Both the position numbers and the translations under genes were made by a program. From contig NC_026660.2 in assembly GCF_000004075.3 (NCBI RefSeq), forward strand, positions 29,019,498 to 29,083,497: a DNA stretch of 64,000 nt. The letters run 5' to 3'. Shown here piece by piece: positions 14,965 to 44,444 of this stretch. Source of the stretch: Cucumis sativus. Lineage: Eukaryota; Streptophyta; Magnoliopsida; Cucurbitales; Cucurbitaceae. Position 1 is the stretch's first letter; every line of letters starts with the position of its first letter. Below the pieces are notes generated by a model. It did not search any database and was not told where the DNA came from. It worked only from the letters and a program-made list of their open reading frames with translations.

Positions 14965-15366
14965 CTAACAATAGCCGATACATTTCTTAGTACAATCGAT
15001 GGTACAGCCACCGCCGCCACCTCCACCGCCGTAACCCTTGCCCGATCGGCTGTAGGAGGAGAAGCACTTAGCCGGACAAGTCACCTTCTTATTGTAACAA
15101 GGACCCTTAACTTTACAAACCACAGAATTTCTTATGATACCACCCTTGCCGTAACCGCCTTTGGGGCCACCGTAGCCGCCGCCGTATCCCCCGCCGATGA
15201 TCCCCTTGTCCCAACCCTTTCCAAAGCCGGGTATGTCGCCAAATCCGTTCCCGGGTCCGAACATGCCATCGAAGCCGCCGTCCTTCCGGGCGGTGGCGAG
15301 AGAGATAGACGGCGAGAGAAGAAGAATGGCAATGAGAAATGGGAAAATGGGGATGAAGAGATTCAT
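14965..15366 (-). CDS. Secreted glycine-rich protein with eight cysteines
   Basis: Single-exon gene of 133 residues. A hydrophobic signal peptide (about residues 1-25) precedes a glycine-rich middle with GGGYGGGYGG repeats at 58-67 and a basic C-terminal half. Eight cysteines lie at residues 84, 90, 97, 101, 121, 125, 129 and 133, interrupted by an eight-glycine run at 113-120, and the last residue is Cys. I recall small plant glycine-rich extracellular proteins with a similar C..KGPC..KK.TCPAKC..S.SRSGKGYG layout, whose role is mostly undefined; a cell-wall or apoplastic location is inferred from the signal peptide. The opposite strand also has a long open frame here, caused by GC-rich GGN codons and not counted as a gene. 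Confidence 0.82.
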   Translation of the reverse strand: MNLFIPIFPFLIAILLLSPSISLATARKDGGFDGMFGPGNGFGDIPGFGKGWDKGIIGGGYGGGYGGPKGGYGKGGIIRNSVVCKVKGPCYNKKVTCPAKCFSSYSRSGKGYGGGGGGGGCTIDCTKKCIGYC

Positions 15367-18300
15367 GATTTTTTGTTTTGTCTTTCTTTTTCTTTTTGTG
15401 GAATTTGCAAAATGTTTGGGAGAGGAAAGTGAGGGATTGGGCAGAGATTAAAAGTGGGTAAGAAGATAGTGGGAAGGCAGCAAAAGCATTTATGGAAGAA
15501 GGTAATGGAGGGGCAGTTGGCTCCTCATTAATGGACTCAGCTATCATCTTTCTTTTCTTTTTTATCTTTTTCTTCTTTCTCATGAATGTCAAATGTGCCA
15601 TTCTAAATTTATGATTCATGTTACAATTGTTTGAGATATTCAAACTTACATCTGAATCCCACTGCTTCATCCAAATTTTTATGTTACCAGAACCCTATCC
15701 TCTTTTAACTTTCTAATTAATTTATGTATGCATATTGACTAATTCAATTCTCCTTCTATTTAATGACTTGATTGATATACTAACCACTCAATAGCAAAAG
15801 TATATTTATCATAATACTCTAATTTGATGTATTATAGATAGATTATGATATTTTGACTATATTTATAAATATTTTAAAATAAAATTTCATGTCTTTGTTT
15901 AAATGAACATATTTGGTAACTCTAAACAATACTAGACTTGTTACATAAAGTAAAGTATAGAGTTGGCTGTTGTCCCTTAAAAAGGTTGGTTTTGTAGCAG
16001 TTTTAAAAGTTATATTGTTTGTATTATTAAAAAGATAATAATGGAGGGATATAACCAAATGGGAAATGAAGAAAATATGAGAAGATTTCATTTAAGTGTT
16101 ATATCCAACTCCCAACCATGAAAGCACATGCCCTTTTCTCCATTTCCCCCCTGAATTATTTGATGCCACTTTAATCAACCCATTTGACTAAAGTCACAAA
16201 AATACTATTCATCCATACATATATTACAATTACACTATCATTTCTTTAACCATACCCATGCAAAGATCATACCAATGTCCCATAAGTGATTTTGGCAAAG
16301 AGAGATAAAATAAGGAGTGAAAAGATAAGGCATGTTCTTGAGTATATCATGGAGAAGAATGTGGGAAAAGGGCATTTGAGATTTGGGAAACAGAAAGTTC
16401 AATGAATATTATTCTTTTGTTCTAATAGGGCCCTCCTCTCCATTACTTTACCATTTAAGTAAGAAAGCAATTACTTAGTTGATCCAACTAATGAGTTAGT
16501 GTACTACATATATAGGTCTTATGTATTCATGATTTTCATAACTCCTTTGCTTTACACATTTGACTTACTCAAACTTTAATCAAACATATGAGTAGTTTCA
16601 AGTGACATCAAAATAAAAGGTACATTTCATTAACATATAACAAAAAGTTAAAGTTTAAATGCTCCAAATTGTAACTATTGTACACTTGACATAGTTGTAC
16701 ACGATCAAGCGAGTCGATGTTGATAAACGATAAATCATTACAAGTAAGATAGATTTCATCAGATAAGTAGGGTATAAAATTGAATAGAAATGTTTGAAAA
16801 TTTGGAAAGTAGGCCCTTGGACAATCACTAGTGGATGAAGTCTCAAGTCTCAAACAATTCATTAGATTCTTATTTTTTAAAAGAAAAATGCAACTAGAGG
16901 ATAAGATATAATGGTATATTTTTCATATTATAAAGTAACAACTATTTAGTATTTGAATTTAGTTTTTTATTTTCGATTTTGTAACAAAATAGTCTTTCGG
17001 GCAGATGTTGATTTTTATTGTTTCATGACTCTAGATTTTGTAATTTGAAAAAATAATAATTAAATTGGTATATAATATTGTAAAATGTACTAGATTATTA
17101 CAAAATTAAAAATAGAAAAACAGAATCATTGCAAAGTACTGTTTAATAAATCAATATACAAATTAAAGTGGTTAGTTGTATCAAACTTTGAAGATTAATA
17201 GTGATCTTCGTAAGCGATTTGTGTATTATTTTTGCCTCTTACGTATGACCATGAATAATTAATAAACAACGTGCATTTATTTAGAAATTAAATGGAAAGA
17301 GATATATAATAATGTGATAATTAAGCCCAATTAAGCACCCTAACACCATCACATGTTGTCGGGCAAACATCAGATTAATTATACAATTAAAAGGCTAAAC
17401 AAAGATATGCAAATTGATAAGATATATATTATTATGATTATTTTGTTTTTGTATTAACCAATTCTTCTTAATTAATTGTAATTGTAATTAAATGTTTGTA
17501 TTTGTATTTGTTATGAAGCAGTGATTAGGACATTTGGTTCCCTCATTGAATACATTAGCTGTACATGCTCTTGTCCTTTCATACTTTTTTATTTCTAAAT
17601 TCAATCAATCCTACCCCTTCACTTTTGCTCTCATTAATACCCATTCCTTTTTTCTTCTTTTCTTGTACTTAATGTATTAAACATTAATATAGTTAATTAT
17701 TGGTATGTGTATGGCATAAACTCCCTCTAAGTTGTATTTATTTTAAACTAATTTTCTTTAGTTTTTTAAGTTGAAATTAGAGATTCGTTTTTTATTTTTT
17801 ATACAGAAAAACTGCTAAATAAACAAATGAAGATATTCATGAGACAAAGTATCTTATTATTATAAATATATATATAACGCAATCAAATTTAAAGCCAATA
17901 TTACAAACATTGAATCCATCAATTCCTCCAACTGTCCTACAACTCATCCAAATTTGAGTTCAATTTCCGATCGTCTTCTCTTTTTTTTTTTTAAATCACA
18001 ACATATTATATAACAATTTAAGCAATTACACAAGTTTTTAAAACTTCAAAATTGTACATTTAGATCATGAGCTTTCACTTTCACTTTTTTTTTTTTTTTA
18101 ATTTCACCCATCTACTGAATATATCACTAAAATATTGAATCTTTGAAGACTCTATTATTATTATTTAAATATAGCAAAAATTTACAAAATATAACAATTT
18201 TTTTAGTTTAATATTTTATATTGGTGATATACTATATTGGTATATAGACCCACTATCATTATTAATCCTAAAAGAACTGCTCTCTATGTATATTTGGAAT

Positions 18301-18779
18301 TGTAAATTGGACCGGAATGATGGTAATGGGCTTTGAGGCACACAAAAGCAGCCCAATACTGATTTGGATTGAGGTGGTCTTTTTCTAAAGAAAAAATGAT
18401 TGGAAATGGCAAGGAAGGGCTAATTTTGTGTGTGTTTCACGTTGTATTTATGTTGAATTGCATCACAAGAATCTCTTTTTATTTGTATGATATTATCTCT
18501 GTTTTGGTAAAGTGAAAAAGTGTGGTTTGTTCCCAAACGCTCCTCTTTCACATATATTGAATGGTTACAATTAAAAATGGAATAAATCAGATTTTTCTTT
18601 TGAGCTTGTTGGGTTGGTTCTTAACATGGAATCTCCTCAGTTTCATAGTGTAGTGGTGGGACAAAGGCAAAGCACCGCTGTCATCACTCCCCACTCATTC
18701 AACCATTTTCCATTTCCCCATCTCACTCTTTTTCTTTTTCAATTATTTTGCTTTATTCTGTCCCCTTCTCTTTCCTCTC
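15367..18779. other. Intergenic, AT-rich; includes 5' flank of the glycine-rich gene
   Basis: No supported gene. Near 18120-18290 there is a patch with ATATAGCAAAAATTTACAAA-like sequence and GTGATATACTATATTGG, which resembles short AT-rich transposon debris. I could not find its ends, so it is not called as an element. Confidence 0.45.
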
Positions 18780-18786
18780 TATATAA
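18780..18786 (+). promoter_or_regulatory. TATA box of microprotein gene 1
   Basis: TATATAA lies about 80 bases upstream of the ATG at 18867, inside a pyrimidine-rich stretch. It supports transcription of this short frame. Confidence 0.6.
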
Positions 18787-18866
18787 CACCCACCCAATGC
18801 TTTCCCACTCCACTTTCAACCAACTCTCATTCAAAACTCTTCTCTTCCTCTCACAATCCAACACAC

Positions 18867-19025
18867 ATGGCCGCTTCCAGAACCCACTACATCACCGCCG
18901 CCGCCTACTCTCCCAGGGCTTCTGCCCGCCCCTTTCCCAAGCGAGGTCAGGTCAAATTGGGGATTATGGTGGGTCTTGCCCACACCGTTGCTTCAATTTT
19001 CTCACCCACCACTCGTCGGACTTAG
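18867..19025 (+). CDS. Microprotein 1 of a three-gene cluster (PKRGQVK family)
   Basis: Intact single-exon frame of 52 residues, starting MAASRTHYIT and ending TTRRT. Residues 21-46 are the shared core: RPFPKRGQVK, then LGIMVGLAHTVASIFS. The core combines a basic PKRGQVK patch with a short hydrophobic or amphipathic stretch, and there is no signal peptide. I do not recognise a named family and assign no function. The ATG context ACACACATGGCC is favourable. Two related genes follow on the same strand at 22230 and 24547, with almost perfect agreement across the core but different N- and C-termini. A longer overlapping frame starting at 18614 reads the same DNA in another phase and has no support. 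Confidence 0.78.
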   Translation: MAASRTHYITAAAYSPRASARPFPKRGQVKLGIMVGLAHTVASIFSPTTRRT

Positions 19026-22000
19026 ACTACAAGGCGGCCAGCGGTGGCTCTCACACTGAACCGCCCGGCCCGGCCCGACTCCCTCTTTTTTTCTTTTTTA
19101 TGAGTTGATGGAAGAGAAACGGCATGGACACGGATCGGAGAGTCTCCGGAGCTCTTTTGGTGTCTTTTTGTATAAACAATTTTTCTTTTTTTCTTTTGTG
19201 AAATTAATGGAAAAAATGGAGACTTATTCATTCTCTATTTATCATTTTGTGGCTCTAAGTTTCTAATTCTTCTTTTTTAAGTATAATAAATTATGCAAAT
19301 TAATCATCCCAATTACATTTATTATTTTTGTACTCAACTATAATAATTAATAAATAAATTAGATGAGATGGAGGAAATTATGATGCTACAAATTAATAAT
19401 AAATAACAAAAGAATCTACAATTATAGATATAGTTGAGAAATTCTAAGTATTTTCATTGCCTATAATTTAAGATGGATAAGGTTTGGATTGTGAAAAAAT
19501 TTGGATATGCACTTGAATATTTCCAAAGGATGATGTCTGTAAAAAAAAATCTTTTATTTATCTTATAAATATGTTATAGTTTCTTATAGAAAAACATATA
19601 GAAGAAGATCAAGCTCATATATAAGATTACAATAATATTCATCTTTTATTGAATTATATAACAAAATACTTTTTAAACTGATTATCAATTCTACCATAAA
19701 TCGTCATAAACTATAAAAGGGCTCAAAGCTTTAAATTAGAAGGTTAAGGATTAACAATCTTCTTTCTTTTTCTTTTAATTCATTGATGAGAACGTCGTAA
19801 GCTAATTAGTTATGAAATATATCGGCTACAAACAACACACAACATTCAACACTGATGACTTTGACAGTTTATTAGCAATATTACAGAAAGAAAAAAAAAA
19901 GATGGATATAGAAAAGAGAAATGAATTGTTACATATGATAAATAGTAAAGAAATGGAAATGGGTACATATGAAATTAAAAAAGGGGTACGGGAAAACGAT
20001 GTCCCTAGCTGTACTGATAAAAATGATCCCACCCATTTAAAACCAAATCTATTTATTATATTTATGTCTATGTTTTGATACAAAGATCTCAAATTTACTT
20101 AAAACAAAAGATCTCACACCAATACATTGAATCCAACATACATCTTTCAAATTTGCAGCCTCTCTCAGATTCAGTGTCTTGTTTTTTTGTCCACTGATAT
20201 ATAATCCATAATAAACTAAAGTAAAATCATAATACACAATTATTTGCAACTTGCTAATCTTTCTTCTAATTATTGCCTTCAATTCTATACTTGACATCTT
20301 AATTATATAATTATATCGCCTTTCTCTCTACTTTGTCTTTTATTAATGCCAGTGAAGGTGACATGCATTTATTTAACTGATTAAAGTGATGCTTTACTTT
20401 TCTTGTATCCCTTTACCTTATTTCACACTTGCTTTTACATTTTTATAAATCTTCTTCTTTTGCTTTAAATCAATAGTTACAAATGAGTTAGTTGTGCTTA
20501 ATTATTTAGTTTGGGTTAATGGAACATGAGTTGGCTTCTCATGATTGCTCTTCTGTTTTTACAAAAATGGGTTTGAGAGAAGTTGATGGATGAATTATTA
20601 TAATTAATTCGGTTTTTTAATTTTAGTTTAAAGAATAATTATATACTTTGACCTCTAAATTTTGTCTCTTCCGGAGTTACTACATCTCTAATAACTCAAC
20701 GTATGTAATCCTTACCTACGTATGTGTTCATATATACAAAAACTTACTCCTTCCTCTCTTCTTCGTAATATCATTTTTCTTAATTAAGGGACTTTATCTA
20801 AATTGTAGACAAAAGGTGGATGGGTAAGGGATAACGAGTAATTATGGTACAGGCAGTTGAAGGGGTTGAGTTAGGAATTTTAGGAGTCATATCTATGTTT
20901 TCTTGGATATGTTTTAGTATATCAATGTATTTTGGATGTTTGTTCTTTTACCTATAATTTAAAAAATGAATCCAAAATTTGAAAACTAAAAATAAATACG
21001 GTAATGGTTACGTGCAATTAAATTGTTAATTTTGTTTAAATTCATATTCTAAATTTAATACATGAATTTTGTAAATTTGAAAAAATAAAATAAATAATAT
21101 TTAAATTTAAATTAATTAACTATACATAAAAAAAGAATTGAGATGGATTGAGGTAGGAAGGATTGGAGAAATTAAGGAAAGATTGAAGAAATTGGGGAAG
21201 AAGTAAAGAGTTATATAACCCTTTCTCCCTATCATTTTCCCTCCTCAATGTTTCCAAATCTGTGGGACAACTTCGATTTTAAAAAAGAAAGGTTATGGAG
21301 CATTAATTGATAGTGATAAGACTTGGTTGAGGTCGTATCAAATTAAAGAAGAAGAAGAAGAAAAAGAAATGGTTAAGGTTAAATGAATGGGAGGAGAAAG
21401 CCACCGATAGTGGCGGGGCAGCCTTTTAAGTTTAGCTTATGGTACCCCCAACCCATCATGATTTATCATTAATTAAAGCCTTTTCTTTTTCTAGTGGAAG
21501 CCATATGAGCACGTTTTTCTTCTTCTTCTCCTTTTTCTTTTTCCCTACTACATTTCTCCTGTGATTAACAATTTCGTTTATTAGTGTCACTTTATTTCAA
21601 ATCTCCAAATTGCCCTTCCTCTTCTTACCCCACCTCACTACTACTACTCCCAACTCCCACCCCATTTCAAACTTTCAATTCTGACCTTTTCCCTTTCACT
21701 ATTCAATTCAATTCAATTATTTATTTTCCTTCCGGCTCAAGCCAATATTTGATTCATATTATAACTTTACAATATAATTCTATATTTAAAATTGATGGTT
21801 TTATGTCATATTACATATTTGACTTCCATTATTTTGATAAAAATTGGAATGAGTTTTCTAGCTTGCTTGCTTGCAAATCAAGTAGTTTGAATAAGAACCT
21901 GAATTTGACCTTATCTCTATGGAAGTGGGAAATGACGTCACTGGCTCTACTTAAGAGAAAAGGTCAAATTTGTAATTGAGGACTGATTTTGATTTGAAAT

Positions 22001-22139
22001 TTGACTAAGACAGCGGTGGGGTGAAAAGCTCTGATTGATATAGAAAGCAAACGGGAAACGAAAAACAAGACGCCAGTTAGGCAGGGTCAAGATCGTCAAC
22101 TTCTACTACGGCGTTTCCCTCATCTTAACCTTCTCGTTT
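19026..22139. other. Intergenic between microprotein genes 1 and 2
   Basis: AT-rich DNA. A plus-strand frame of 88 codons at 19812-20078 has an AT-driven, Lys/Asn/Ile-rich composition, no domain and no similarity to the neighbouring microproteins, so it is not called. A short GAA repeat lies near 21345-21360. Confidence 0.45.
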
Positions 22140-22153
22140 TATATATATATATA
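22140..22153 (+). promoter_or_regulatory. TATA box of microprotein gene 2
   Basis: An uninterrupted TATATATATATATA run lies 77-90 bases upstream of the ATG at 22230, the same spacing as in gene 1. Confidence 0.55.
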
Positions 22154-22229
22154 CCAATTACCAACAAGCTCTAACCATAACTTCAACAATCATCTTCTTC
22201 TTCTTTCTCTCACTATTTCAGAAACTCAG

Positions 22230-22385
22230 ATGGCGGGTACACGGATCAACGCAATCAACCATGGAAATTTGTCGAGGAAATGTTCGGACCGTCTGATTCC
22301 AAAACGGGGTCAAGTGAAATTGGGAATCATAGTGGGTATTGCTCACTCAGTGACTTCGATATTCTCTCACGGCAGCCGGAAATGA
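22230..22385 (+). CDS. Microprotein 2 of the cluster (PKRGQVK family)
   Basis: Intact single-exon frame of 51 residues, starting MAGTRINAIN and ending SHGSRK. The core at residues 21-46 is RLIPKRGQVK followed by LGIIVGIAHSVTSIFS. Compared with gene 1 over the 23 codons from PKRGQVK to SIFS, I count 4 amino-acid changes, 12 synonymous codon differences and 7 identical codons, the pattern expected when selection maintains the peptide. The N-terminus is unlike that of gene 1. No function is assigned. Confidence 0.78.
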   Translation: MAGTRINAINHGNLSRKCSDRLIPKRGQVKLGIIVGIAHSVTSIFSHGSRK

Positions 22386-24447
22386 CTGTGGTGGCCGAGG
22401 AAGAGAACGGGTTCAGTTAATTGGGATCGTTGACTTGGTTTTTTTTTAAAATCGACGGTCCTGATTTTCCGAGAGTGAGCGGTTCAAATTTTATCGAACG
22501 TCACAGATTTAGACGCTGAGATCTTCCGAATTGTTAATTGAAAGATGAGGAAGAACCCGAGGTGGCCTTTTTTGTGTATGTGTGTGTAACTTTTTCTCTT
22601 TTTTTTTTCTTGTTTTAAAGAAGTTGTTCATTTTATGGTTTGTGATGGTGTCTGTAAATTAGCAAAATTGCTTAATTTACTGTAAAATAATCATAATAAT
22701 AATTTACTTTCCTGATTACTGGTTGTGTTTAATTCAATTACGTATGAAATTTTAGTTAATGTAGTAATATAAATGAACTGTTTGAGGAAATACTTGATTG
22801 TAATGCTTAATAATTTCAAAAGAAGGAAAAAAAATGGGTTGAAGAGATAAGAAATATAGTGAGAAAAAGACAAAATGTGACAAGTTGGATGCGAATCTTT
22901 GAGTGTTGGAACAAAATCCATCACTCTGTCAAATAGAAATATAAAAATAGTTTAGAAAGATTGTTTGTAAGGGTAGGGCTCAGCTCAGTGCATTGGATTG
23001 AATTCAGCAAAGACGTATTCAAATTCAATGTCTCCATTGTGTTATAATATTTACCATCGCCCCCACAATTACAAATTTGCTGTCTTACTCTACCATTTTT
23101 TTAAAACCTCTTTCCTTTCTATGTATATAATAATCAAATGTTGGTCTAATTTTTTTTAATTGTTGTCAGAGTTTTGAACTTGGTTTAATTTTTCTCTCTA
23201 TATTTCAAAATTTGAAGTTTATCATATACTCTTTTCAATTTAGTTTCTCAAAAAAAATTAAGAAACAAATTTGACGTTGGTTTTCAAATACCTATTAAAT
23301 ACAAAACCAAAAGTTCAGAATTTTTATTTTTTAAAAAATTATAAACCCACAAACTTTAATTATACTTCCCAAGTGGTTATTTAATTTAAGAAATATTAAA
23401 AAATATATATATATTTAAACGTATACTAATCAATTCCTAATGTATTCAATACAAATCTAAAAGATAAATCAACAGTAGTATTGTTAGGAAAGTAGAGTAG
23501 CAAAATTAGATAACGAAGAAAAGCTGTTCAATAAATTAAACGAACAAATTGGACCCATTTCTCAAATTCGGTAGCATATAATATCACATTTCTAAACACA
23601 TAAGAAAAAACAAAAAAGCTACTTTCCTAAATTATAAAAAATTAGAGAACGAACATTCAGAAATTAAATCTGGAATCTCATCTCCCACAAAATAAGATGA
23701 ACTGAATTTTTTAAAAAAAAAATTGTATAAAAAAGAAGAGAGGTTCTAGAAGAAATTTGTGGAAGTATGATCCACATAATTAATATTAATAAATGAATGG
23801 GACCTTCACCTTCAGTAAAATTAATATAATATCGAAAAATTATATTCGATAAAAATAAAATACAATGAACCTTCTCCTTCTCCTCCTCCCTCCCCCATTC
23901 CAATTCCGCAACCACAATACCCCGTCGCCGGTGCCTCAGTTGTTAAATAATAAATAAAATCGCTGGCTAAGAGGTGCCATATGGTTCAGGTGAACCGAGC
24001 CCACATGCCCACTTTCTTCTATGTGTATTTTTAATTAGGAGTTGATTGATTTCGAACACGTTTTTCATTTTATTTTCGTCAATGGATTTGAAAGCATAAA
24101 ACTCCATCTACATCTTCTTTTTAAATTACTCATGGCGTTTGCCTTTATCTTGTTCCCCACGGTCGAATCGAATCCCATTTTATTTTTCCAATTTACCAAA
24201 AACACCCTTCTCCTTTAGAGAAATTCTCAAAATCATGCCCCCCCTTTGCGTGGAGAAAGTGGTAATTTTGACAAAAATATAAAATGCAAGAGACAGCTGT
24301 TATGCAAAAGCCAAGGGCCACCTACTAGCAATTTTTAAAATATGAGCCATGGGCAGTGTATTAGTAGTAAGCAATTTCATCATCAAATTAAAGCAAGTGC
24401 TTATCTTCAAATAAATTATTAAACTTTAAATTTTGAGTTTGGATCTC
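22386..24447. other. Intergenic between microprotein genes 2 and 3
   Basis: AT-rich sequence whose first 250 bases are probably the 3' UTR of microprotein 2 (T-rich, with a TGTGTATGTGTGTGTAA stretch near 22570). No other gene or structured element was recognised. Confidence 0.45.
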
Positions 24448-24454
24448 TATTTAA
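24448..24454 (+). promoter_or_regulatory. TATA-like box of microprotein gene 3
   Basis: TATTTAA lies 93 bases upstream of the ATG at 24547 and is a weaker match than in the other two genes. The leader reads through an A/C-rich stretch typical of plant 5' UTRs. Confidence 0.45.
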
Positions 24455-24546
24455 GTCCACCTCATCTAGCCTTTCAAAGCAACCAAAACTTCTGCACTAA
24501 CAACAATTTTTCCTTTTGCTTGCTCCTAAACTGATACCTCTGGAAG

Positions 24547-24732
24547 ATGGGTGAAGAAGCTAAGATGATGAACAACATCAACGGTCAGAGAATGGGAAGG
24601 AGAATTTCTGGGCGTTTGATCCCAAAGAGAGGGCAAGTGAAGATGGGAATCATGGTGGGGTTGGCTCAAACTGTCACTTCTATCTTCTCTTACAGTCACA
24701 GTACTCAACGACAACATTGTACATCTAGATAG
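24547..24732 (+). CDS. Microprotein 3 of the cluster (PKRGQVK family)
   Basis: Intact single-exon frame of 61 residues, starting MGEEAKMMNN and ending RQHCTSR. The shared core lies at residues 23-48: RLIPKRGQVK followed by MGIMVGLAQTVTSIFS. It is the longest member, with an acidic/Met-rich N-terminus and a Ser/His/Gln-rich tail. The frame ends about 260 bases before the stop codon of the minus-strand NDA gene, so the two genes converge. No known function is assigned. An antisense frame of 70 codons over the same DNA is treated as a shadow. Confidence 0.78.
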   Translation: MGEEAKMMNNINGQRMGRRISGRLIPKRGQVKMGIMVGLAQTVTSIFSYSHSTQRQHCTSR

Positions 24733-24987
24733 ATACAAACATATGTAGCTTCTATGTAATTTTGAGGTTGAAGAGATTAAGGTTGTAAATTTGTAGTGAT
24801 ATCAATGTCAATTTATAGCTTTTCAACTATTCCTTGTGATTCTTCAACTTTTCTCTATCCTAAAACTTTTCTCTATGAATTGGGGGAGAAACACCAAAAA
24901 TGAAAGAATCAAATCTGTATAATTCTAAGAAATGAGCAACAGAAAAAAGACGAAAAACTCAAAAAATTTCGTGGTTATTGGTGAAGT

Positions 24988-27632
24988 TTAACCGATCCGG
25001 GAGTTGTCTCTGCCGAAAACAAGAGTGGTAGCCCAGTTGACAGCCACATAAAACCTGTTTCTCCAGCTGATTACACGAGTCAGATATGCAGATCGCCATA
25101 TGAGCCAACTCAAGAACCCTGCTAGTGATATGCCTTTTGCATCCTGTTAATACCCACAATTCAAAAACATTTCATGACCCCAAAGTTAAAGATATTTGAA
25201 TCAATCAAGATTGATTGTTTTTTTCTATTTACCTTGGACTGGCGTAGATCGACAAGAGCCTTGTAACGACCAACTGATGCCATGCTTCCCAGATGTTTAT
25301 ACACAAAAGGGTCACCTAAAGGAATGTCTTTTGCACTCAAAGCCTTGCCTCCATTCTCTTTTCCAATTCTATTGAACAGTTCTACAAGATACTTCCCTTC
25401 CCTCTCTGCAACCTGTTTCATAAAGTTTTTGAAGAAGTTGGTATTGATGGTATAGTTATTTGACTCAGAAATCTCATGAACTTTGGTATAAAATAAATGT
25501 TATGTGAAGGTTGCATTTCTTCTAGCCTACCTGAGCTAGAGCAGGAAGAACTGGTTTTCCTGTTTGTTCAAGAAAACCGGCACAATCCCCAAGTGCAAAA
25601 ACATCTTCCACAGAAGGAACTCGCATCCATCCATCCACACCAATCCTGAGTCACACAGCAAACCATTGTAGACAGTCTTGAAGAGAATAGTGGTTATTAG
25701 ATTCTCAAGGTTATTATAGATATATACCTTCCACCAGGGGCCTTTGGAAGATGGAGTGATTTAACAAATTCAGAGGGGCCAACGCCTGTAGACCAGACCA
25801 AGAGGCCATACGGAACATCAGTACCATCACTCAGAATTATCTTATCGGCAAGCACTTCCTTCACAACACCTCGCATCAGCCGAACGCCACACTACCGAGC
25901 AAAACAGAGAATTTCTTTAAGAAACAGATTCTATGCAGAAAACTAGTCAGAGGGTTTGATGCTAGACTGTACTACCTTGGTCAGGTGCTTTGCTGCATAG
26001 GTTCGCAGCCCGAAGTCAAAGGAGGACAGAATCTCATTTGCCTGTTTATAAAAGGAAGTGTCAAAACCAACACAAAAATAGAATGTTGTATCATCTTCTT
26101 AGCAATGTTGTTTGATCTGAAGTTTGAAAGAATGGTACCTCAATCAGTGTAACTTTAATGTCGTCTTTAATGTGAGCATAGCGATCTTGAACATCCCTTA
26201 TGATGAAATCGCTCAATTCGCCGCTAAACTCAACGCCTGTCGGTCCGCCTCCAATCACCACGCAGTGGAGAAGGCGTTTCTTTTCTTCTTCTGATAGACC
26301 TGCAGTATACGGTAGCATCTAAAGTTAAAAATCATCAGATGTATGAAAGATTGAATTCCATTGTCAAACAGAATTTCCATCTATTTTTTTCAGCATGGGG
26401 ACTTCTGATGACAAGGAGGGCCGAGCTAACCTGGATTTTCAGAGAGCATTAGATTTAAAAGAAGCTTTTTCCTAATTTCTTGAGCATGATTTACTTCACG
26501 GAGGAAAAAGGCGTGTTCTTTGACTCCCTTGACACCAAAAGTCAAGGGCTCAGATCCAACAGCAATCACAAGCTTGTCATAAGCAACTCTAAATTGGTAA
26601 GTCTCGTGAGGGAGTTCACCATAGTTAACAGTCTCACAGAACACCTGGTCAAAGAATGAAAGAAACGATTATGTCATTTTGGAAATGAAAGATAACAACA
26701 CAGATCCATTCAGCATTAAGTCAAATGCTTTCAACTTTTGTTTTATTTTTGAAAATACATATTTCGGACTCCTAGAATAGAAGTCATCTAACCCTTCCTA
26801 GAAGCAACTATTTCCGGAAAGGAATCCATTTTAGTACTTATAAGCGGTTGATAACCCGTAACTCAGTAAAACAGATATTTTATTCACAATTCATACAAAT
26901 TAGAAAGGTATTCAGTTAGGATAACAGAACAATGATGCATCTGGGACCGAGTAGTAATTGCATTATCTATACTAAGTTTAATAGGCATTAATAACATAAA
27001 AGGAATGCATGCAACTGATAGAAAAACAAAATGAACTACCCACAAGATTCACTAACCTCGTGTTTATCTGTATCAACACCGGTGCAAGAAGCCAGATAAA
27101 AGTATGAATTGGGATCCTTTGCTAAGGCAGTTTGTATTCTACTGACAGGCTCAGCTACAGAGCGAAATTCCAAGGTTCCAACACAAGTTGAGGCCAGAAG
27201 AGGAGTAAAGACCATGTGATTTCTAGGTGATATGCAGACAACATCATAAACCTTTGTATCAATTCCCTTTAGGAAACGACATGCAGCCCAGCCAGTGCCA
27301 AGGACAACCACCCTTGGCTTTTCCCCTGGCTTGGTTGCTTCAAGTCCAGGCCCAAAAGATGGCTCATCACTCTCTAAATCAGATTCTTCTACAAGTCTTT
27401 CAGCTGATGGGAATTGGCGCTGTGGCGTTATACTTATTCCCCTGCTCCAAAAACTCACGTGATTCACTCTTTCAATGTGAGGAAGGTTCAAGAAAAAGCC
27501 ATTTGTAGTGGTATTGTTGAAGCTTCTATATGTTGATGCTCCTTGGGAATATGAATCCTTCTGGTGTGAATGCTTATTGAATGCGCTACCTGATCTTCTC
27601 AGTCCATTCCTGGCAATCCTTGATAAAACCAT
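24988..27632 (-). CDS. NDA: Internal alternative NAD(P)H-ubiquinone oxidoreductase, NDA type, mitochondrial
   Basis: Type II NAD(P)H dehydrogenase: a rotenone-insensitive, non-proton-pumping flavoprotein on the matrix side of the inner mitochondrial membrane that feeds electrons to ubiquinone. Eight minus-strand exons join to 543 residues: 27632-27057, 26644-26431, 26299-26139, 26041-25976, 25891-25728, 25645-25531, 25412-25233 and 25143-24988. The N-terminus is rich in Arg/Ser and fits a transit peptide. The FAD-binding Rossmann motif LGTGWAAC lies at 111-118 and the NAD(P)H motif [11 protein letters not shown] at 277-287. LGDCAGF marks the second FAD contact, and the C-terminus carries the membrane-associated [10 protein letters not shown] helix. 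No EF-hand insertion is present, which separates NDA from NDB enzymes. The exon 3 start follows CTGCAG because frame and family sequence demand it; a nearby TTTAG would shift the frame. A 5' UTR intron with an acceptor near 27709 is likely. Confidence 0.95.
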
Positions 27633-30600
27633 CTTGACAACAAGATTTGATAATGCCTTTTCCCGTTCTATTGGATGCCAAATTCAGTAATCCTAGTCTG
27701 CTGCAACTGAAAATATAAGAATGAGCAAAAATATCATGAGACTAAAAACTAGATTTCACCACGACATGACAAGAAAACAAAAGACAACTTTGCTCAAGTC
27801 ATCAAATGGTGGCAGATACTAATGGCAGTCTCTTACATGTCCAATTAACCAAGGAATTAAAAAGACAACAAAAACTCCCATCATTCAAAGCCTCATCAGT
27901 AACGAACTCCTAACATTTACTTTTCCTTTGGGAAACAGAAAACCCAACAATTGTAACTACCATCCGTAGAAGACCCATTCAGCTTTGTCGTTGTTCTTCT
28001 AGGTAGGTTCGGGAGTAATTTTAAAATACTTTTGTACAGTATACTTAAATCCAATCATTCAAAATGAATTTAATATTTAATTTCGTTAACAAAACTGATT
28101 TTGAACGATAAAGACATGTCTTGTTTGTAACATTCTATAATAATTTAGTCCTTATTTTTTATTGTCACTACGTGTTAGAGCATTGATACTGAATCTTTCA
28201 TCTTAGGCCTTAGGATTACAATAATGATATGTACGTAAAAAATATTGAAGAATTAAACTATTTTATTCAGCGCGCGCAATAGACTGCAACCAACTAAAGA
28301 GCATTACTTATCTATTAATAATACAACACATCTAGAAAAAATGGGAAAAGTTCTTAAAACCATGCTATCCCCACGCCAATAATGAAACATATATGCATCC
28401 AATGAAATCTATATAGACAATGGAAGCATCTTCAAAACCATTGAAACCATAGATTTCAACCATTTACAGAATTAAAATGACGGCATCCCATCTAAGATCC
28501 AATATTCAAGCTCCTGTAATATCATTTCTTAATTGATTTACTCTCTACAAATTTGTAAGGCACAAAAGAAACTCATGGGCAGCAATAACAACCCTTGAAA
28601 ATTGAGCATTATAACAAACACATGCAGCCACTTCCCAACAGATCTACAAAAGGAGTTACCACGTAACCCTTTCATACAAACACATTTCCATAATGAAATC
28701 AAGGGCAAAATATATGTAACTTGTAAAGCATGGAAGAACAAGACAATGTGTGAAAATGAAAATGAAAATGATGGGTTAGTCAGTAAAATGCAAATAAAAT
28801 AATCAGAAAAGGAGGAAATGTAGGAAGAAGAGAAACAAAAAAGATCACTTTTTTTCTTTCTCCTTATTCTTCTGATGGTGTTATGAAGGGAAGACGGCGA
28901 GCAAATCCCAGAAGAGTGGAGAGATTTAATAAGAAGAAACTGATTTGGGGGGGTTTTTAATTTAGATCTTATGTAAGGAAAGTAGCAATGGACGTGTGTT
29001 ACATGGGTGCAAAAGACAGAGAGGGGTACGAAAGAAACGTCAACATTCCAGAGTACTTGGGGTGCAAGTAAGTCAAAAAAAATGCTTTGCTTTTGTCATT
29101 ATTTCATTTATCACATTTTGGATTCTCCAATTTTGGAAATGGGTAGAGAAATTTAAGGACTTTCCTGGAAAGTAGACTGAATAAGATGAAGAGGCTGCTT
29201 CTTTCACAGTCTCGTTTGTTGAACGACACCGTTGTGGAAATGTTGTTACTTTTTCCCATTTGAGGAGGAACCGTTAAAAAGTTTTCAACTTTTGTGTTTA
29301 ATACATATTCAAATGAGAACTTCTTTTTTATAATACCAAAATAAATTAAAATATTTAGTCGTAAAAAAATTTAAATTCTATTAATAGATTTGTACATATC
29401 ATTTAAAAAATTTCCTTTCCCAACAACGTTTCATTTTCTATAAAAATAGGACAATAAATTTATTATGCATTCTTCCTTCTTTTTGTTTTAAGGGTTTTTT
29501 TAGTTAGTAAAGAAGATTTTGGAGGTGAAAATTTTGATTTTAATAATTTCAAATTAATATTAAATAATCATTAAATACAATGAATTAAGGAAAGTTTGAA
29601 AAAAATAGTATAAAAATTATTATAATAGACTATATTTTTTAAATTGTAAAAATAGCAAATTTAAAAGTAAAATAAAAAATGTTATCCAATATAACCTTCT
29701 TTTTCGTATTTAATGGGTTGTCGAGGTGAAAAATGTTAGATTTGTATAAATCTTCCTAGATGCAAATAAATAAACAAGTTTAGGAAATTTTAGATACAAA
29801 ATCCATTTTTTTTTGTAAGCTCTAACAAATGTATGCATTAAGTTCATAAGTTCATGTATAACGTAATAAATAACTTGATGTGATAGTAATAAATTTTAAC
29901 GGATGGATCAATGGTTAACAAGTTTGAATCATGAATGTAATTGGACTTGGTTTTGGTAGGTTACACAAAATTATCAATTTTCACATGTTTGCTATTACCA
30001 TTAATGATAAGGGAATGTAATATCGACCAAAATTGTGATATGTTGGTATCATAATTTTATGGGCAAATTCAAAATTGGTTTAACAATGACTTTGACTTCC
30101 GTTTCAAAGGGGATTTCTTTTTTTTCCATCTCTGACGACGCAACAACAATGCCATACATCAAATTCCTTTGGAAAAAATGTCATTTAAAGTAAAATTTCC
30201 ATCTTCTTGCGATTATGTAGCAATTCAAAGATGCCATCTTTACCATTACAGACCACTGTTTTAACTACTTAAGTACACCAGTTAGATCAAAAATTCATTC
30301 TATTGGTTTTTTGACCTTTCGCTTTCAAATTTAAAAGGAAAAAAAAAAGGAATTGATTCCATTAAGACTGCTTGAAAATCACTATCATACAATACAGGAT
30401 GTTAGACTCAGGTCTTTGAGTTTGACCCTTCTTTAATCTCCTATGAAATTCTCATAAAACATGGTTTCTAGATTGAATGTGTGATGATGGCAGTTGACAA
30501 TACTACTCTTGCAGGTAAAAGATGAACCATACTTGCACCCTTGTTGCAACTTGTAAGTGGAAGTTTCCAATATACAGTGTACAAACGAGCCCTCCACAAG

Positions 30601-30968
30601 AAATAATTATCGTCACTTGTGTGGTTAAAACTACATTATTTAACGTGGATTTGGAAATTTGTTTGTTTTCTAACAACTATTGATATAAGGTCGAGATGCT
30701 ATTAAAGTGATCTCTCTCAAATATCTAACAATGATTGTATGAGATAAGATATTCAAAATATTCATCCATGTACTATGTTTTTTCTGCATTAATTAATTGA
30801 GGTGATTTCTGATTTTTTTTTTTAATAATAGATCGGTCTGCTTTTGGCTTTGAGAGTGACATTTAATCATAGCATGTTCTACTTGATGCGTAGTAGATTT
30901 ACCTCACTATAGTCTTTCTAATCATTTGCTAATTTCCTTGTCTTGGAGAGTCCAACTACAGTCAAACA
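27633..30968. other. Divergent intergenic region between NDA and the quinone oxidoreductase
   Basis: The left part should hold the NDA 5' leader and promoter, because a splice-acceptor-like TTTTCAG near 27709 on the minus strand implies a leader intron; a leader exon near 28850-28970 is plausible. Around 29580-29700 there is AT-rich, transposon-like debris (repeated short AAATAGCAAA-like strings). No other gene was recognised. Confidence 0.45.
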
Positions 30969-33412
30969 ATGAAGGCCATTGTGATTAGTGAACCGGGGGA
31001 AGCGGACGTTCTTGAATTACAGGAGGTTGATGATCCAATAATCAAGGACGATGAAGTTCTGATCAAGGTTGTAGCCACTGCCCTGAACCAGGCCGACACG
31101 GTTCAGAGGAAAGGCTCTTATCCCCCTCCAAAAGGCGCCAGTCCCTACCTCGGCCTCGAATGCTCTGGGATTATCGAAGCTGTTGGCGTAAACGTCTCCT
31201 GCTGGAATATTGGCGATCAGGTAATTCATGGGCTTTCATGGAAATTCATTTCTACTTCATCTTATTTCACTCTTCTCCATTTCTTTTGGATCTTTTCTTG
31301 CTCTTATTTATTGTTATATCACTACAGAAGGGTTAAAGTTTTCATGGGCTTTGTGTAATTCTGTTAAGCCCGTTTCTTCTTATGCTTAATGTTGTGGTTA
31401 TAACAATTTTACTCTACTTGTTTGAGGACTCTAAACGTTATTTAATTATCTTTTTTGGGTAGGGAACAATTCCTACTATACTATATGCTTTAAGGAATTT
31501 AAATTACTAGCATCTGTAGCACAGGTATGTGCTATTCTTGCTGGAGGCGGATATGCTGAGAAAGTGGCTGCCCCAGCTGGACAACTACTTCCAATTCCAC
31601 CCGGTGTTTCATTGAAGGATGCTGCTAGTCTTCCGGAGGTGGCTTGCACCGTTTGGTCGACTGTGTTTATGACGAGTCGATTATCGAGAGGAGAAACATT
31701 GTTGGTATGATTTTGGATAACTCCATTTTGGTTTTAACTTTACTTGGGTAAGCTACAAAAGACTGAAAGGAAAATGAGAGAGAGAAAAGGAATGTTATTT
31801 TCTTTAGTAGGTATGTTGATTAACATGAAGTCGGTTATAATCACAATTGAATTCATTTTTTCATTGCCATCATGAATGAAACGGTATTCAAATTTCAGGT
31901 TCATGGAGGCTCTAGTGGAATTGGTACTTTTGCCATTCAGATAGCTAAATACCAAGGAGCAAGAGTATTCATTACTGCAGGTTTAGTGATTACTTTGGTC
32001 TTCTAATTGTTCAATCCTGAGTTTGTCCTGATGTTTTTTAATCTTCTTCGCCAGGAAGTGACGAGAAATTAGCTATCTGTAAAGAACTTGGAGCAGACGT
32101 GTGCATCAATTACAAAACTGAAGATTTTGTTGCAAGAGTGAAAGAAGAAACAGATGGAAAAGGTTGTTCTTTAGTATCTCTATTATAACTGTTCAATGTT
32201 TCAAGGTTCCATTTCCTGAAAATGCTTGTTCTTTTCTAATATTGTAGCACTGAAAATGAATGTGATATTCTATACCGTGACAGGTGTGGATGTTATTCTC
32301 GATAGTATTGGAGCCCCTTACTTTCAGCGAAATCTTGAAAGCTTAAACTTTGATGGTAGGCTTTTTAGTATTGGAAGCACGGGGGGAGACGTAACACAGC
32401 TAGATTTTCGCAGTTTGTTTGCGAAACGCCTTACTGTGCAGGGTAAGGTCATTTTAAATGAGATTTGTCGAAATAATTTGCAGTCTGAGCGTCTATCCAA
32501 GAAGCTTTCATTCATTCCACCCAAATCAAAAACCCATTCTACTGTTTAGAAATTTTAAGAGTTCAAATGAGTCGAAACTCAAAAGTATGCAAATGTCAAA
32601 TAAATGTAGTAAACGTTATAGTAGCAATCGATATATCCTTATCCTTTTTGCACCATTCTGTACTTTTTAGATGATTAAGATACTATACTACTTAAATAAG
32701 CATCTACTTCTCTATTGCCACACTCACAATGTTTTCTTTAATTTTTCACATATTACATATCATATTAAGACGAAAGTGAAACATTTTAAGAAAAGAAAAG
32801 ATTCCCCTTCTTGAATTCTTGAAAGTTTCCACTTTTCCTCCAACTTTTAATCTGCACACGAGATCTTACGATAACTTTTATTTCTCGAATGCTGCACATC
32901 TGGTCATTACAAGGAAAGACTTTCTCCATTTTTGAAGCATGGGTCCTTTTCTCCAATCCTCAATCCTATTTGGTACTTATCTTTCAATGAAGAAATATCA
33001 GGTTGTCAAGGACAACTCACTTTCATGTATCTTCACAATGATATGATTTTATTTTCATTCATTTTTGGTTTAAACCCACGTGATTTTCTTGCTTTTGATT
33101 TCATTCAAAAGGCCTCGTACCAATAGATATAATTATGCTTCTGTATTCATGATCATTCTCTTCTCTAACCAATGTTAGACTTTGTTTGTGTCTAACATAT
33201 GTATCATGTACACAGCGGCTGGCTTGCGAAACCGGTCTCCTGAAAACAAAGCAGTCATTGTAAGTGAAGTTGAGAAGATAGTTTGGCCAGCCATTGCAGC
33301 AGGCAAGGTGAAGCCTGTGATCTTCAAGTATCTACCACTGTCAAGAGCAGCAGAAGCCCACAAGCTGATGGAGAGCAGCAATCATATTGGAAAGATACTG
33401 CTGATTCCATGA
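30969..33412 (+). CDS. NADPH:quinone oxidoreductase, PIG3-like (zinc-independent medium-chain dehydrogenase/reductase)
   Basis: Predicted soluble enzyme that reduces quinones or related carbonyls with NADPH. Six exons join in frame to 325 residues: 30969-31220, 31525-31704, 31899-31980, 32055-32162, 32284-32442 and 33216-33412. The N-terminal GroES-like half includes NQADTVQRKGSYPPPKG and GLECSGIIEAVG, which match the PIG3 branch. The Rossmann half carries the NADPH motif VHGGSSGIGTFAIQIAK (exon 3) and the DSIGAPYFQRNL segment. The C-terminus reads HIGKILLIP. The structural zinc cysteine cluster of alcohol dehydrogenases is absent, as expected for this family. The length fits plant PIG3-like proteins. 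The physiological substrate cannot be read from sequence. Confidence 0.94.
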
Positions 33413-37600: not shown

Positions 37601-40600
37601 GAATCAAACTTAATGAAAAGAAATGTTCTAATTAAACAAGAAATACTCGGAAGTATATACCAAACCTTTTTTAGAAGGGACTAAAGGTGAGGAAACGCTA
37701 GCTTTTAAGATCCTAAATGGTAACACTTAAGAACTACCCAAACGCAAATTCTAACAACCATTTTGTTATTTCCATAAACAGAAAAAGGGAACTTTAAGAA
37801 TCTAAAATATATGCAGAAACACCAGAGAATATGGCACTCACTTGGAATGGAATATATATGTGTGTGGGTGTGTGTGTGCACAAGTACTGCAAGAGCGGTA
37901 ATTAAAATTTGTTTTTTCTCATGAATTTTTTATATTTAAAAAAAAAACTCCACAATTTTTGCTTCAAATATAAACACAACAGACATCAGTCTTTTCAGAA
38001 CTTATACTACAACTTCATGTGCATCATGAAACTCTGGTACTTTCTTCAAACCAGTAACTTCAAAAATATCCAACTGTCATGGAACATTCAAAAGGCTTCA
38101 CTTTTGTTTTCTATTGCTATCAAATAGTTTTAGATCATTTTCATTTCAGCATAATTATAATAACTCTTTTTTTTCTCTTCAAAAGAACCAATTCCATTGA
38201 TTCAAAGAATGCAAGAGCTGGAGAAGAGATTGATTATACATACTGTTTCAACTGCATGCTCAAATAGTTCTCTTGCCCGCTCCAATTTTGTCTTCCCATA
38301 TCTTTTCACAAATTTGGATAGATATGTGACCCATATATCTTTAACATGAGGATATTTAAAAATCTTGACGCCCCTTTCATATACCTTGAATGCATCTTCA
38401 AAGTACTTATGTTCCTGACCATGTCAAAAAATATGTCAAAATCATATGAACTAATCTTAATCCATCAACTGAAGAAAGGTAATATAAAATGTCACAAGAC
38501 AAATTTAGCATACCTCAAGAAGCAAAGCATAGTTGATTATTATTTGTGGGGTAGCAATTCTTAAGTCAAGTATTCGCTCATAAACTGCCCGGGTAGACTC
38601 CAAGGTTCCAAGACTTTCTTCCAAATCAACATAAAAGGTCCAAAGTCTTAGGGACTTGTGCACCTTCATCTGGACGGGTTCATTCCCATCAGCAGCCACT
38701 GCAATTATAAACATAAACCAATGAGATTATACTGTACTCCATAAACCTTGAGCTCATTTTTTTTTATATAAAAACAACTTTCATTGAGAGAAAAAAAATG
38801 AAAGAATAAAAGGACATACAAAAAAAAAAGCCCAACAAGAAAGAGCCCCACTAGAGGAAGGGGATCCAACTAAAGATTAATGTTTTCTAACGAATAGTTA
38901 CTAAAAGAAGGGGATCCAACCTTGAGCTCATCTTAACGACAAACATAGGTTTGTTGAAATCAATACTATTTTACTGAGAAACAAACTATTTAACTTACTG
39001 TTCAAAATATTCTACAAAATAACCTCTAATTTAACTCCTTGGTCTATACAACCAAAATGCTTGCGACTAAATGCTAAGTAAGATGCTTTAACACAAGAAA
39101 AACCTAGTGTACTGTTAACTGTAAATGAGAGAACTAGTAAAGTAAATAAACATGAATGCAGTTACTAATGAGAAAGCTTTTTGAAGTTACCTTTTCGTTT
39201 GACTTCAACAGATGGCTCTGCTGTAGCTCGACGCATTAGCTCCAAAGCTCCTTTAAAATTTTTATGCCTCAATTCCATTTCCGCCCATTCACACCAAATG
39301 CTAGCCAAGTTATCCACAGTCTTGTAGTTAACTTGTACAGCTTTGTCAAAAATAACTCTTGCATTTGGAAGATCTTTGTGTGCTTCATACAACTTGGCAA
39401 AAGCAACCCACAAGGTGTGAGGCTTACCCACTGCTTTCATGGGGTCCACTGTTCTCACAGCCTCAGTATAAGTCAAGATCTGTCTTGTGGGATTGCCCTC
39501 AAATAATTTAATCCTCCGATGCCACTGTTCGACATTGTGAGGATTTTGTCTTAGAAGAACACTATTAGCTAATTCTGGCCTTCTGTCCATTAGATGGTCT
39601 AACCTAGCTAGTCTCAGATCAATATCATTATCATCGTACAGCCAGAAGCCTTGAAGTATCTTCTTCTCAAACTTAGATACCGATAAATCAACATCCAATC
39701 GTATGTCCTCCTCCTCCTCCTCCTCCTCCTCCAGGCCATTCTCTTGTACTTCATCTTCTTCATCACTCAAATCCATATTTTCCATTTTATGAGCTAGCAT
39801 ACTCTCCTCAAATTGAGAGTACGAATCAAATATAACACTAAAATCTCTTACGGTAACAACAGTAGTCATCCCTTCTTCGAATATATCTCTTGCCTTCTCG
39901 TGCAAATTCCTTCTGATGTAATATTCTGCAAGTGATGTCCATAAGCGCCCTACTTCATCTGTGAACTTCCTAATGCCGCCCCTTATTATGGCATCAACAT
40001 TCAACCCTGAAACTTCAGTAGCATGCCTAGTAAGCAAGTCACACAACTCCAACCACAGTCGATGCTTGGTCTTCCCCTTTATAGAATAAAATTGATCGTC
40101 ATTCAACACAGAAGCCAAATTCTCTGCAGCTTCTTGCCACAGATTTGAATTAACCAAAAATTCGATCAAGTCTTCAATATGTGTAGGATCATATTTTAAA
40201 TACCTTCGATAAACTCTAAGCGAGGTCTCAATTGGAATACCCTTTTGGCTAACAAAAACAAGATATGGCTCCCAAATGCGATCATGTTGTGTCACTGGAA
40301 GGGCACAGAGGGCTCGATCAAATGTCCGACGCGTTCGTGTCACTAATTTCTGGTTTGTCAAAGTCTGTAGGTACATTATCCATATTCTTGGCATTTTATG
40401 CATAGTCACAAGCGCTCGTTCAAACGTGTTGTTAAGAGTTTCGTATTGAGAATGAGTAATGGGAAGATTTCGTACCAAATCGAGGCGTTCGCGCAGATAT
40501 GCATACCACAACTTATAGCTACCCGGGAGGGCCTTGAGTGCTCGCTCATAGATTATAAATCGCTTTTTGAATGGTGCTTCTGCTCGTGCTATGAGGTAGC

Positions 40601-40694
40601 GCCACCACAATTTCAAACTAAAAGGATTTCGAAGGAGCTCTTCTTCGTAGAGAAGGTCATCCTGTGATGGATACAAATCTTGGGAAATCGACAT
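34667..40694 (-). CDS. SYF1: Pre-mRNA-splicing factor SYF1 (XAB2 homologue)
   Basis: Scaffold of the Prp19/NTC complex of the spliceosome, also linked to transcription-coupled repair in animals (XAB2). Five minus-strand exons join in frame to 913 residues: 40694-39191, 38698-38514, 38414-38244, 37486-37034 and 35095-34667. Almost the whole protein is HAT (half-a-TPR) repeats, recognisable by recurring W..Y and ERAL blocks such as KLWYAYLRERL, RIWIMYLQTL and DIWVTYLSKFV. An acidic insert near residues 300-325 includes an eight-Glu run. The C-terminus carries a second acidic region (PDESDSEEDENVE) and a basic end RIKRQKKA. The length agrees with plant SYF1. Intron 4, about 1.9 kb, and intron 1 contain transposon insertions described separately. 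The 5' leader may have a short intron with an acceptor near 40762. Confidence 0.96.
35585..36360. mobile_element. hAT-like non-autonomous DNA transposon (MITE) in SYF1 intron 4
   Basis: Element 35593-36352 (760 bases) flanked by a likely 8-base target-site duplication: AGTGTAAT at 35585-35592 and AGTGCAAT at 36353-36360, one mismatch. The ends are inverted repeats: the left starts CAATGTTTTAAAAGGC and the right, read inwards on the minus strand, starts CAATGTTTTCAAAATTG; both then contain GCCTTGAGGCG. The octamer GTAAGCCT or its complement occurs at 35660, 36209, 36237, 36263 and 36286, a subterminal repeat pattern typical of hAT elements. No transposase frame is present. The 8-base duplication and CA..TG ends are hallmarks of the hAT superfamily; the assignment is made by eye. 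Confidence 0.75.
36745..36905 (-). mobile_element. Possible LINE-like 3' tail fragment in SYF1 intron 4
   Basis: On the minus strand a segment with ATTAATAATAAATGAAAATG followed by GTTCGTCCCTGTTTC and a run of seven A resembles the 3' ends of plant L1-type retroelements. I found no target-site duplication, so the call is weak. Confidence 0.25.
38744..38931 (-). mobile_element. Short retroposed insertion (LINE/SINE-like) with 14-base target duplication, SYF1 intron 1
   Basis: AACCTTGAGCTCAT occurs perfectly at 38744-38757 and 38918-38931, bracketing a 160-base insert. The insert begins with eight T on the plus strand, which is a poly(A) tail on the minus strand. Just inside it, the minus strand reads CTCTCAATGAAAGTTGTTTT and GGGCTCTTTCTTGTTGGGC, similar to plant L1 tails I remember. 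A long variable target duplication plus poly(A) is diagnostic of LINE-type target-primed insertion. The insert also has an internal direct repeat AAGGGGATCCAAC. Confidence 0.7.
39706..39732. repeat. Trinucleotide repeat inside SYF1 exon 1
   Basis: Nine TCC units on the plus strand encode most of the eight-Glu run of SYF1 on the minus strand. This is a coding microsatellite in an acidic linker, so length changes would stay in frame. Confidence 0.85.
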
Positions 40695-43600: not shown

Positions 43601-43814
43601 TCTAAACTGAATGGATTTTGGTTATATTTTTGTGGGTTTGGAGTGTTGATCTGTGAAATTCAACCTTTTCTGGATTTATGTTTACTTTCTATCTGTGTTT
43701 TCTTCAGTGAAGAAGGTCTTTCTCTTTGCGCGTGTCCCGTTCTCTTCTCCAATCCTCCACAGAACATAAAACCCCCAATTTCTCTTCACCATTCGCACCC
43801 CGAAGATTGATTCA
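40695..43814. other. Intergenic between SYF1 and VPS28 (divergent)
   Basis: 40695-41000 should contain the SYF1 leader and promoter. A plus-strand frame of 156 codons at 40768-41238 overlaps it, has no recognisable content and is treated as chance. 41240-42900 is very AT-rich with transposon-like debris; a 17-base string AAATTGTTACCTACAAA occurs at 42722 and 42760. From about 43180 the sequence becomes pyrimidine-rich and looks like the VPS28 leader, with an acceptor-like TCTTCAG ending at 43707 that suggests a leader intron. Confidence 0.5.
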
Positions 43815-44444
43815 ATGGAGGTCAAGCTTTGGAACGACAAGCGCGAGAGAGAAATGTACGACAATTTTGCAGAGCTCTACGCCATTATAAAGGCTACCGA
43901 AAAGCTCGAAAAGGCTTACATCCGTGACATCATTTCCTCCTCCGATTACGAGGCCGAATGCTTCAAACTCATCGCACATTTCAAGACCCTCGCCTCGACA
44001 CTCAAAGACACAGTCCCGAGTATTGAACGTTTTGCTGATACTTACAAAATGGACTGTCCGGCGGCGATCAACCGTCTTGTGATAACTGGGGTACCTGCCA
44101 CGGTGGAGCACAGGGCGGCCGCCGCTGCTTCCGCCACTACCTCCGCTGCTATTGTGGCGGAGTGTGTGCAGAACTTTATTACGGCTATGGATTCGTTAAA
44201 ATTGAACATGGTAGCGGTTGATCAAGTGCACCCCTTGCTCTCGGATCTCTCTGCTTCATTGAACAAATTGACCATTCTGCCCCCGGATTTTGAAGGGAAA
44301 ACAAAGATGAAAGAGTGGCTTGGACGACTTTCGAAAATGGGTGCCGCGGATGAGTTAACAGAGCAGCAGGCTCGGCAGCTTCACTTCGATCTTGAATCTT
44401 CTTATAATTCATTCATGGCGGCTTTGCCTACTGCTGGTACTTGA
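43815..44444 (+). CDS. VPS28: VPS28, ESCRT-I subunit
   Basis: Subunit of ESCRT-I (with VPS23/TSG101 and VPS37), which sorts ubiquitinated cargo into multivesicular endosomes. Uninterrupted frame of 209 residues, the usual length of plant VPS28. The N-terminal half begins MEVKLWNDKREREMYDNFAE and contains KLEKAYIRD and FKLIAHFKTL, the ESCRT-I core-binding helices. An alanine-rich linker (RAAAAASATTSAAI) near residue 100 joins it to the C-terminal four-helix bundle (VAECVQNFITAMDSLKLNM through LHFDLESSYNSFMA) that contacts ESCRT-II or accessory factors. The coding region has no intron, and an intron in the 5' UTR is likely. The start is the first in-frame ATG and matches family N-termini. Confidence 0.96.
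   Translation: MEVKLWNDKREREMYDNFAELYAIIKATEKLEKAYIRDIISSSDYEAECFKLIAHFKTLASTLKDTVPSIERFADTYKMDCPAAINRLVITGVPATVEHRAAAAASATTSAAIVAECVQNFITAMDSLKLNMVAVDQVHPLLSDLSASLNKLTILPPDFEGKTKMKEWLGRLSKMGAADELTEQQARQLHFDLESSYNSFMAALPTAGT

Follow-up and report, generated by a model that had tools for sequence, protein, structure and literature searches.

Three tandem genes in cucumber very probably encode microproteins of an apparently unnamed small-protein family

The window analysed here, a 64,000-nucleotide stretch of cucumber (Cucumis sativus) DNA, contains a cluster of three short genes that, judged from their sequences, very probably code for microproteins and belong to a small-protein family that apparently has no name yet (Table 1). 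All three are complete single-exon frames for which an intron is unnecessary, each with a G at position +4, and the preliminary description of this DNA, which had noted single-exon frames of 52, 51 and 61 codons on one strand, was accurate in coordinates, strand and codon counts. It had also reported a common 23-residue core beginning PKRGQVK and ending SIFS at a near-identical position, and this is indeed what the three proteins share: the cores PKRGQVKLGIMVGLAHTVASIFS (gene 1), PKRGQVKLGIIVGIAHSVTSIFS (gene 2) and PKRGQVKMGIMVGLAQTVTSIFS (gene 3) give the consensus PKRGQVK[LM]GI[MI]VG[LI]A[HQ][TS]V[AT]SIFS, in which 17 of 23 residues are invariant.

Table 1. Positions of the microprotein genes, their upstream elements and Pfam-matched neighbouring frames in the window.
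Feature	Position	Strand	Remarks
Microprotein gene 1	18867..19025	+	52 aa; core = residues 24-46 (18936-19004)
Microprotein gene 2	22230..22385	+	51 aa; core = residues 24-46 (22299-22367)
Microprotein gene 3	24547..24732	+	61 aa; core = residues 26-48 (24622-24690)
Conserved 96-nt coding block, gene 1 (lead-in + core)	18912..19007	+	Direct-repeat family D1; 68% identity to gene 2 block
Conserved 96-nt coding block, gene 2	22275..22370	+	Reference copy of direct-repeat family D1
Conserved 96-nt coding block, gene 3	24598..24693	+	Direct-repeat family; 74% identity to gene 2 block
TATA-like box, gene 1 (TATATAAC)	18780..18787	+	87 bases 5' of ATG; consensus match only
TATA-like stretch, gene 2	22140..22153	+	Boxes start 90 and 84 bases 5' of ATG; consensus match only
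TATA-like box, gene 3 (TATTTAAG)	24448..24455	+	99 bases 5' of ATG; consensus match only
W-box cluster (5 x TTGACY, counting both strands), 5' of gene 2	21819..22090	.	Window maximum; palindrome TGACGTCA at 21933
Pyr_redox_2 frame	27036-27683		Pfam, 25 bits, just below cut-off 26.1
ADH_N frame	30933-31358		Pfam
SYF1 repeats frame	39165-40718		Pfam
VPS28 frame	43770-44444		Pfam

According to the direct-repeat finder, the shared DNA starts eight codons 5' of PKRG in all three genes, and the seven residues preceding the core (RASARPF, KCSDRLI and RISGRLI) follow the pattern [RK]xSxR[LP][IF]. Two of the last seven columns of this lead-in are invariant (p = 0.00065 against shuffled N-termini, the choice of seven columns being post hoc), as are three of the last 22 columns of the N-termini (p = 0.0002 against shuffles). 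The C-terminal tails (PTTRRT, HGSRK and YSHSTQRQHCTSR) are short, with the core ending 5-13 residues from the protein end, and, basic residues apart, are largely dissimilar. The termini had been described as unrelated, which is true of the C-tails save for these basic residues but not of the N-termini, where the lead-in is kept.

The protein core is under strong purifying selection, and its DNA is free to drift. The three pairs differ at 3/0/14, 4/0/16 and 4/0/12 of the first/second/third codon positions (each out of 23), and Fisher tests of positions 1+2 against position 3 give p = 2e-6, 4e-7 and 1e-4 for the core pairs. Nei-Gojobori estimates for the core, rough values since they rest on 23 codons, are a dS of 2.3 for genes 1-2, beyond saturation for genes 1-3 and 1.1 for genes 2-3, and a dN of 0.083, 0.081 and 0.126, respectively. 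With 12-16 of 23 third positions changed and no second positions, the pattern indicates strong purifying selection on the protein and old duplications. Among the six reading frames over the core, the proposed frame keeps 17 of 23 columns, and the other five keep 4, 4, 4, 5 and 11 (of 22 or 23). Outside the frames, the one-kilobase flanks of the genes show no significant similarity to each other (best match E = 0.017); the only long repeat family common to all three is the 96-nt block inside the frames, and the remaining repeat families there comprise 24-31 nt of AT- or pyrimidine-rich sequence. As the protein core has been kept despite far-drifted DNA, the trio very probably consists of real, old genes, and that they code for protein is close to certain.

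A TATA-like box precedes each gene, as had been reported; the distances of 87, 84-90 and 99 bases lie close to, but not entirely within, the 77-93 bases first given. The only upstream ATG within 110 bases of any start is found at 18797, before gene 1 and out of frame; it lies 17 bases behind the start of the TATA-like box and so probably precedes the transcript start. The upstream 500 bases of gene 2 carry five W-boxes against 0.59 expected from the window, a count reached by 8 of 1270 overlapping windows, all at the gene 2 cluster, and by 1 of 2000 dinucleotide shuffles, with a Poisson p of ~0.02 after correction for 57 motif-promoter tests. The palindrome TGACGTCA occurs once in the window, among these W-boxes. 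Genes 1 and 3 have no TTGACY in their upstream 500 bases, and the bare TTGAC occurs there twice in gene 3 and not in gene 1. The arrangement upstream of gene 2 is suggestive, but no proof, of WRKY/TGA control and stress- or defence-linked expression; the chances that gene 2 is inducible appear evenly balanced.

Searches for relatives returned the same three loci throughout. Queried with the gene 2 protein, the 226.6 Mb genome yielded only three places, with E = 1.5e-10 and 2.4e-8 for the two besides gene 2 itself, and gene 1, gene 3 and a 32-residue consensus each led to the same loci; all of these protein searches score only the candidates of a loose first look, three of three in each case, so that a much-diverged copy could be missed. 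An exact degenerate DNA motif matched only the three genes in the genome, with no matches in the backward control, and a six-frame profile scan of the window likewise picked out just these genes, the runner-up having E = 0.82. A loose DNA pattern of the Px[RS]Gx[x]K type fitted 103 genome places including the three genes and 126 in the backward control, and therefore shows no excess. In 39 of the 100 places outside the genes, 12 of them chosen by eye as closest, the frames were inspected for further paralogues, and none continues like the core. The only PKRGQIK among the matches listed, at C6:23729226, lies in a frame without a preceding Met and without a core downstream, and tighter patterns fitted three and two other places (one common to both), again in frames lacking the core. 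Profile searches of viral and prokaryote genome contigs yielded 14 and 48 stretches, respectively, that fitted the pattern, none of which was confirmed.

The preliminary description had recognised no named family, and the libraries used here agree. Pfam and NCBIfam contain no model matching any of the three proteins at E<=10, bearing in mind that NCBIfam is built for prokaryotes and that the HMMER filters drop most very weak matches. Among PDB sequences only three matches were obtained, to flagellar FliR at E 0.26-0.49, and these were taken as chance. Pieces of the core motif were absent from the open-licence literature searched, and among the papers listed by topic none could be tied to this cluster. 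Homologues may well exist under unnamed plant protein database entries. Searches for RNA families at gathering scores and for tRNAs each returned none, and the stretch 22385-24546 occurs once in the genome and hence gives no sign of a repeat element there.

Four of ten neighbouring frames matched Pfam (Table 1), and six had no match at E<=0.001. The Pyr_redox_2 and ADH_N frames may represent, respectively, an alternative NAD(P)H dehydrogenase of the NDA type and a quinone oxidoreductase, and the neighbour order appears to resemble that of the Arabidopsis regions around AT4G21560-AT4G21620 and AT2G29990-AT2G30560. The frame at 14965-15447 (-) starts with a hydrophobic segment, becomes glycine-rich in the middle and carries several cysteines towards its end (CKVKGPCYNKKVTCPAKC, CTIDCTKKCIGYC), with no Pfam match at E<=0.001. 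A further frame without a match at that threshold, at 58149-58571 (+), looks like part of a VAL/HSI2-type B3 transcription repressor.

The three proteins are strongly basic, with 8-10 K+R per protein, a net charge (K+R minus D+E) of +8 in each and a pI of 11.6-12.0. The most hydrophobic part of each protein falls within the core: residues 31-45 for gene 1 (mean Kyte-Doolittle 1.85) and gene 2 (1.90), and residues 33-47 for gene 3 (1.54). Over 19 residues the best means reach only 1.12-1.35; a stretch of 15-16 residues is on the short side for spanning a plasma membrane, and the proteins have only a modest helical moment (0.25-0.28). By hydropathy, used as a proxy for a signal peptide, none of the proteins has a hydrophobic N-terminus, and with the best hydrophobic stretch in the core, export by signal peptide is unlikely. 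AlphaFold, given three sequences for gene 1 and one for gene 3, predicts a helix over the core at residues 26-45 of gene 1, together with a short low-confidence helix at 6-12 (ten-residue means 77, 87 and 65 over residues 21-50; mean pLDDT 67.6, pTM 0.37), and a helix at 28-59 of gene 3, whose confidence is low past the core (ten-residue means 70, 89 and 92 over residues 21-50; mean pLDDT 72.1, pTM 0.37). The core is thus predicted to form a helix of ~20 residues behind a PKRG basic cap. The basic patch had been proposed to adjoin a short hydrophobic helix, a picture on which the basic residues, the hydropathy and the AlphaFold helix, itself a prediction, agree. A small/polar stripe of the pattern G-xxx-G-xxx-[TS]-xx-S-xx-S runs along the predicted helix (G32, G36, T/S40, S43 and S46, with H/Q39, in gene 1 numbering), opposite most of the I, V, L, M and F residues.

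From these features it could be speculated that the PKRG cap together with the lead-in keeps the peptide attached to an acidic partner or to the anionic surface of a membrane, and that the helix, with one small/polar and one mostly hydrophobic side, docks into the membrane or a groove of the partner. That the proteins act as non-secreted, membrane- or partner-docking helices is a reading to which we give an even chance. The conserved serine of [RK]-x-S-x-R may further serve as a phosphorylation switch weakening the electrostatic hold, a rather doubtful refinement. The three copies would then differ mainly in the timing of their production, gene 2 being controlled by WRKY/TGA factors and induced by stress or defence.

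Known plant peptides offer several points of comparison. Secreted plant peptide hormones (CLE, PSY etc.) are likewise encoded by short genes, often in families; the trio differs in lacking a hydrophobic N-terminus and in having the core as its best hydrophobic stretch, both judged by hydropathy only. The RTFL/DVL peptides are described as short and without a predicted signal peptide, with one conserved domain of ~30 residues towards the C-terminus and variable flanks (PMC4408365). The cucumber trio resembles them in that its core also lies in the C-terminal half, but differs in that none of the three proteins matches the DVL model (PF08137) in Pfam at E<=10; on the signal peptide, the hydropathy proxy shows only that a hydrophobic N-terminus is lacking. 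That model scores above its cut-off in at least 17 genome places, none in the window, and the trio are not DVL/RTFL peptides. The DVL/RTFL places themselves (at least 17) constitute a ready control set for short-gene annotation.

The RTFL/DVL member ROT4 is located at the plasma membrane, binds the kinase BSK5 and is S-acylated at C42 (PMC10897394). Unlike ROT4, the trio has no conserved cysteine: gene 1 encodes none, and genes 2 and 3 encode single ones at unrelated places outside the core. An S-acylated cysteine is a feature of ROT4 and is not known to define the RTFL/DVL family. ROT4 provides an example of a peptide that is not secreted and acts on a kinase linked to a receptor (PMC10897394). 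A second parallel is BKI1, which has a cationic membrane hook and a 20-residue kinase-binding helix, with a phosphorylation-driven electrostatic switch (PMC7809621). The likeness is one of logic only, namely the cationic part, helix and phosphorylation switch proposed for the trio, with no homology claimed; the switch residue of BKI1 is a tyrosine, whereas the candidate in the trio is a serine. As a candidate counterpart of the hook, the trio has its 8-10 K+R and net +8. BKI1 and the MAKRs (membrane-associated kinase regulators), which are also marked by a conserved C-terminal kinase-binding peptide, are much longer than the trio proteins.

The same features may be read differently. It is unlikely, though worth weighing, that the microproteins go to mitochondria or plastids, with a basic N-terminus poor in acidic residues acting as a targeting sequence and the helix sitting in an organelle membrane: gene 1 encodes no acidic residues and an N-terminus containing Ala, Ser and Arg, and a helix that is short and hydrophobic would fit a small subunit of an inner membrane, yet gene 3 starts MGEEAK, unlike a presequence, and the conserved N-terminal part adjoins the core rather than the protein start. 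Cationic amphipathic antimicrobial or cell-penetrating peptides are less probable still. The charge, the basic-headed predicted helix and the gene 2 W-box cluster would suit such a role, but the core amino acids hardly vary while silent sites are near saturation, whereas defence peptides usually diversify fast; moreover, the proteins lack a hydrophobic N-terminus for secretion and have only a modest helical moment. A helix that is short and strictly conserved is also typical of binding modules, which would suit microProteins in the strict sense, with a core borrowed from a larger protein whose complexes they block. This origin is very improbable, as the protein searches and exact motif return only the three loci in this genome and no larger frame containing the core, although an intron-interrupted core, or one diverged beyond the reach of the loose first look, would escape them. 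Finally, that the frames are no genes, having arisen by chance or being in decay, or that they mark a non-coding element under conservation, is scarcely credible given the codon-position pattern, the near-saturated silent sites and the confinement of similarity to the frames, even though short frames abound, with 53 ORFs of >=35 aa overlapping 18000-25500.

The preferred reading, in which old tandem paralogues encode non-secreted basic docking helices and gene 2 is inducible, is plausible when taken whole, its probability falling a little short of even. Considerably more speculative, and improbable in its full form, is the proposal that the trio represents an old, as yet undescribed family of plant microproteins, not secreted and working as electrostatic switches, that dock intracellularly on a receptor-kinase complex or membrane, with gene 2 placed under WRKY/TGA control so that stress or pathogen signals set the switch. 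Few non-secreted plant microproteins have been characterised, and annotation often misses genes of this size. The trio, very probably real, appears to belong with the short non-secreted plant peptides, in a family of its own that is apparently unnamed. A family whose silent sites are close to saturation and whose 23-residue core has hardly changed should have a precise target, and its three copies, common core and contrasting promoters provide a compact test system, with one core peptide, clear point mutants and one copy that is predicted to be inducible.
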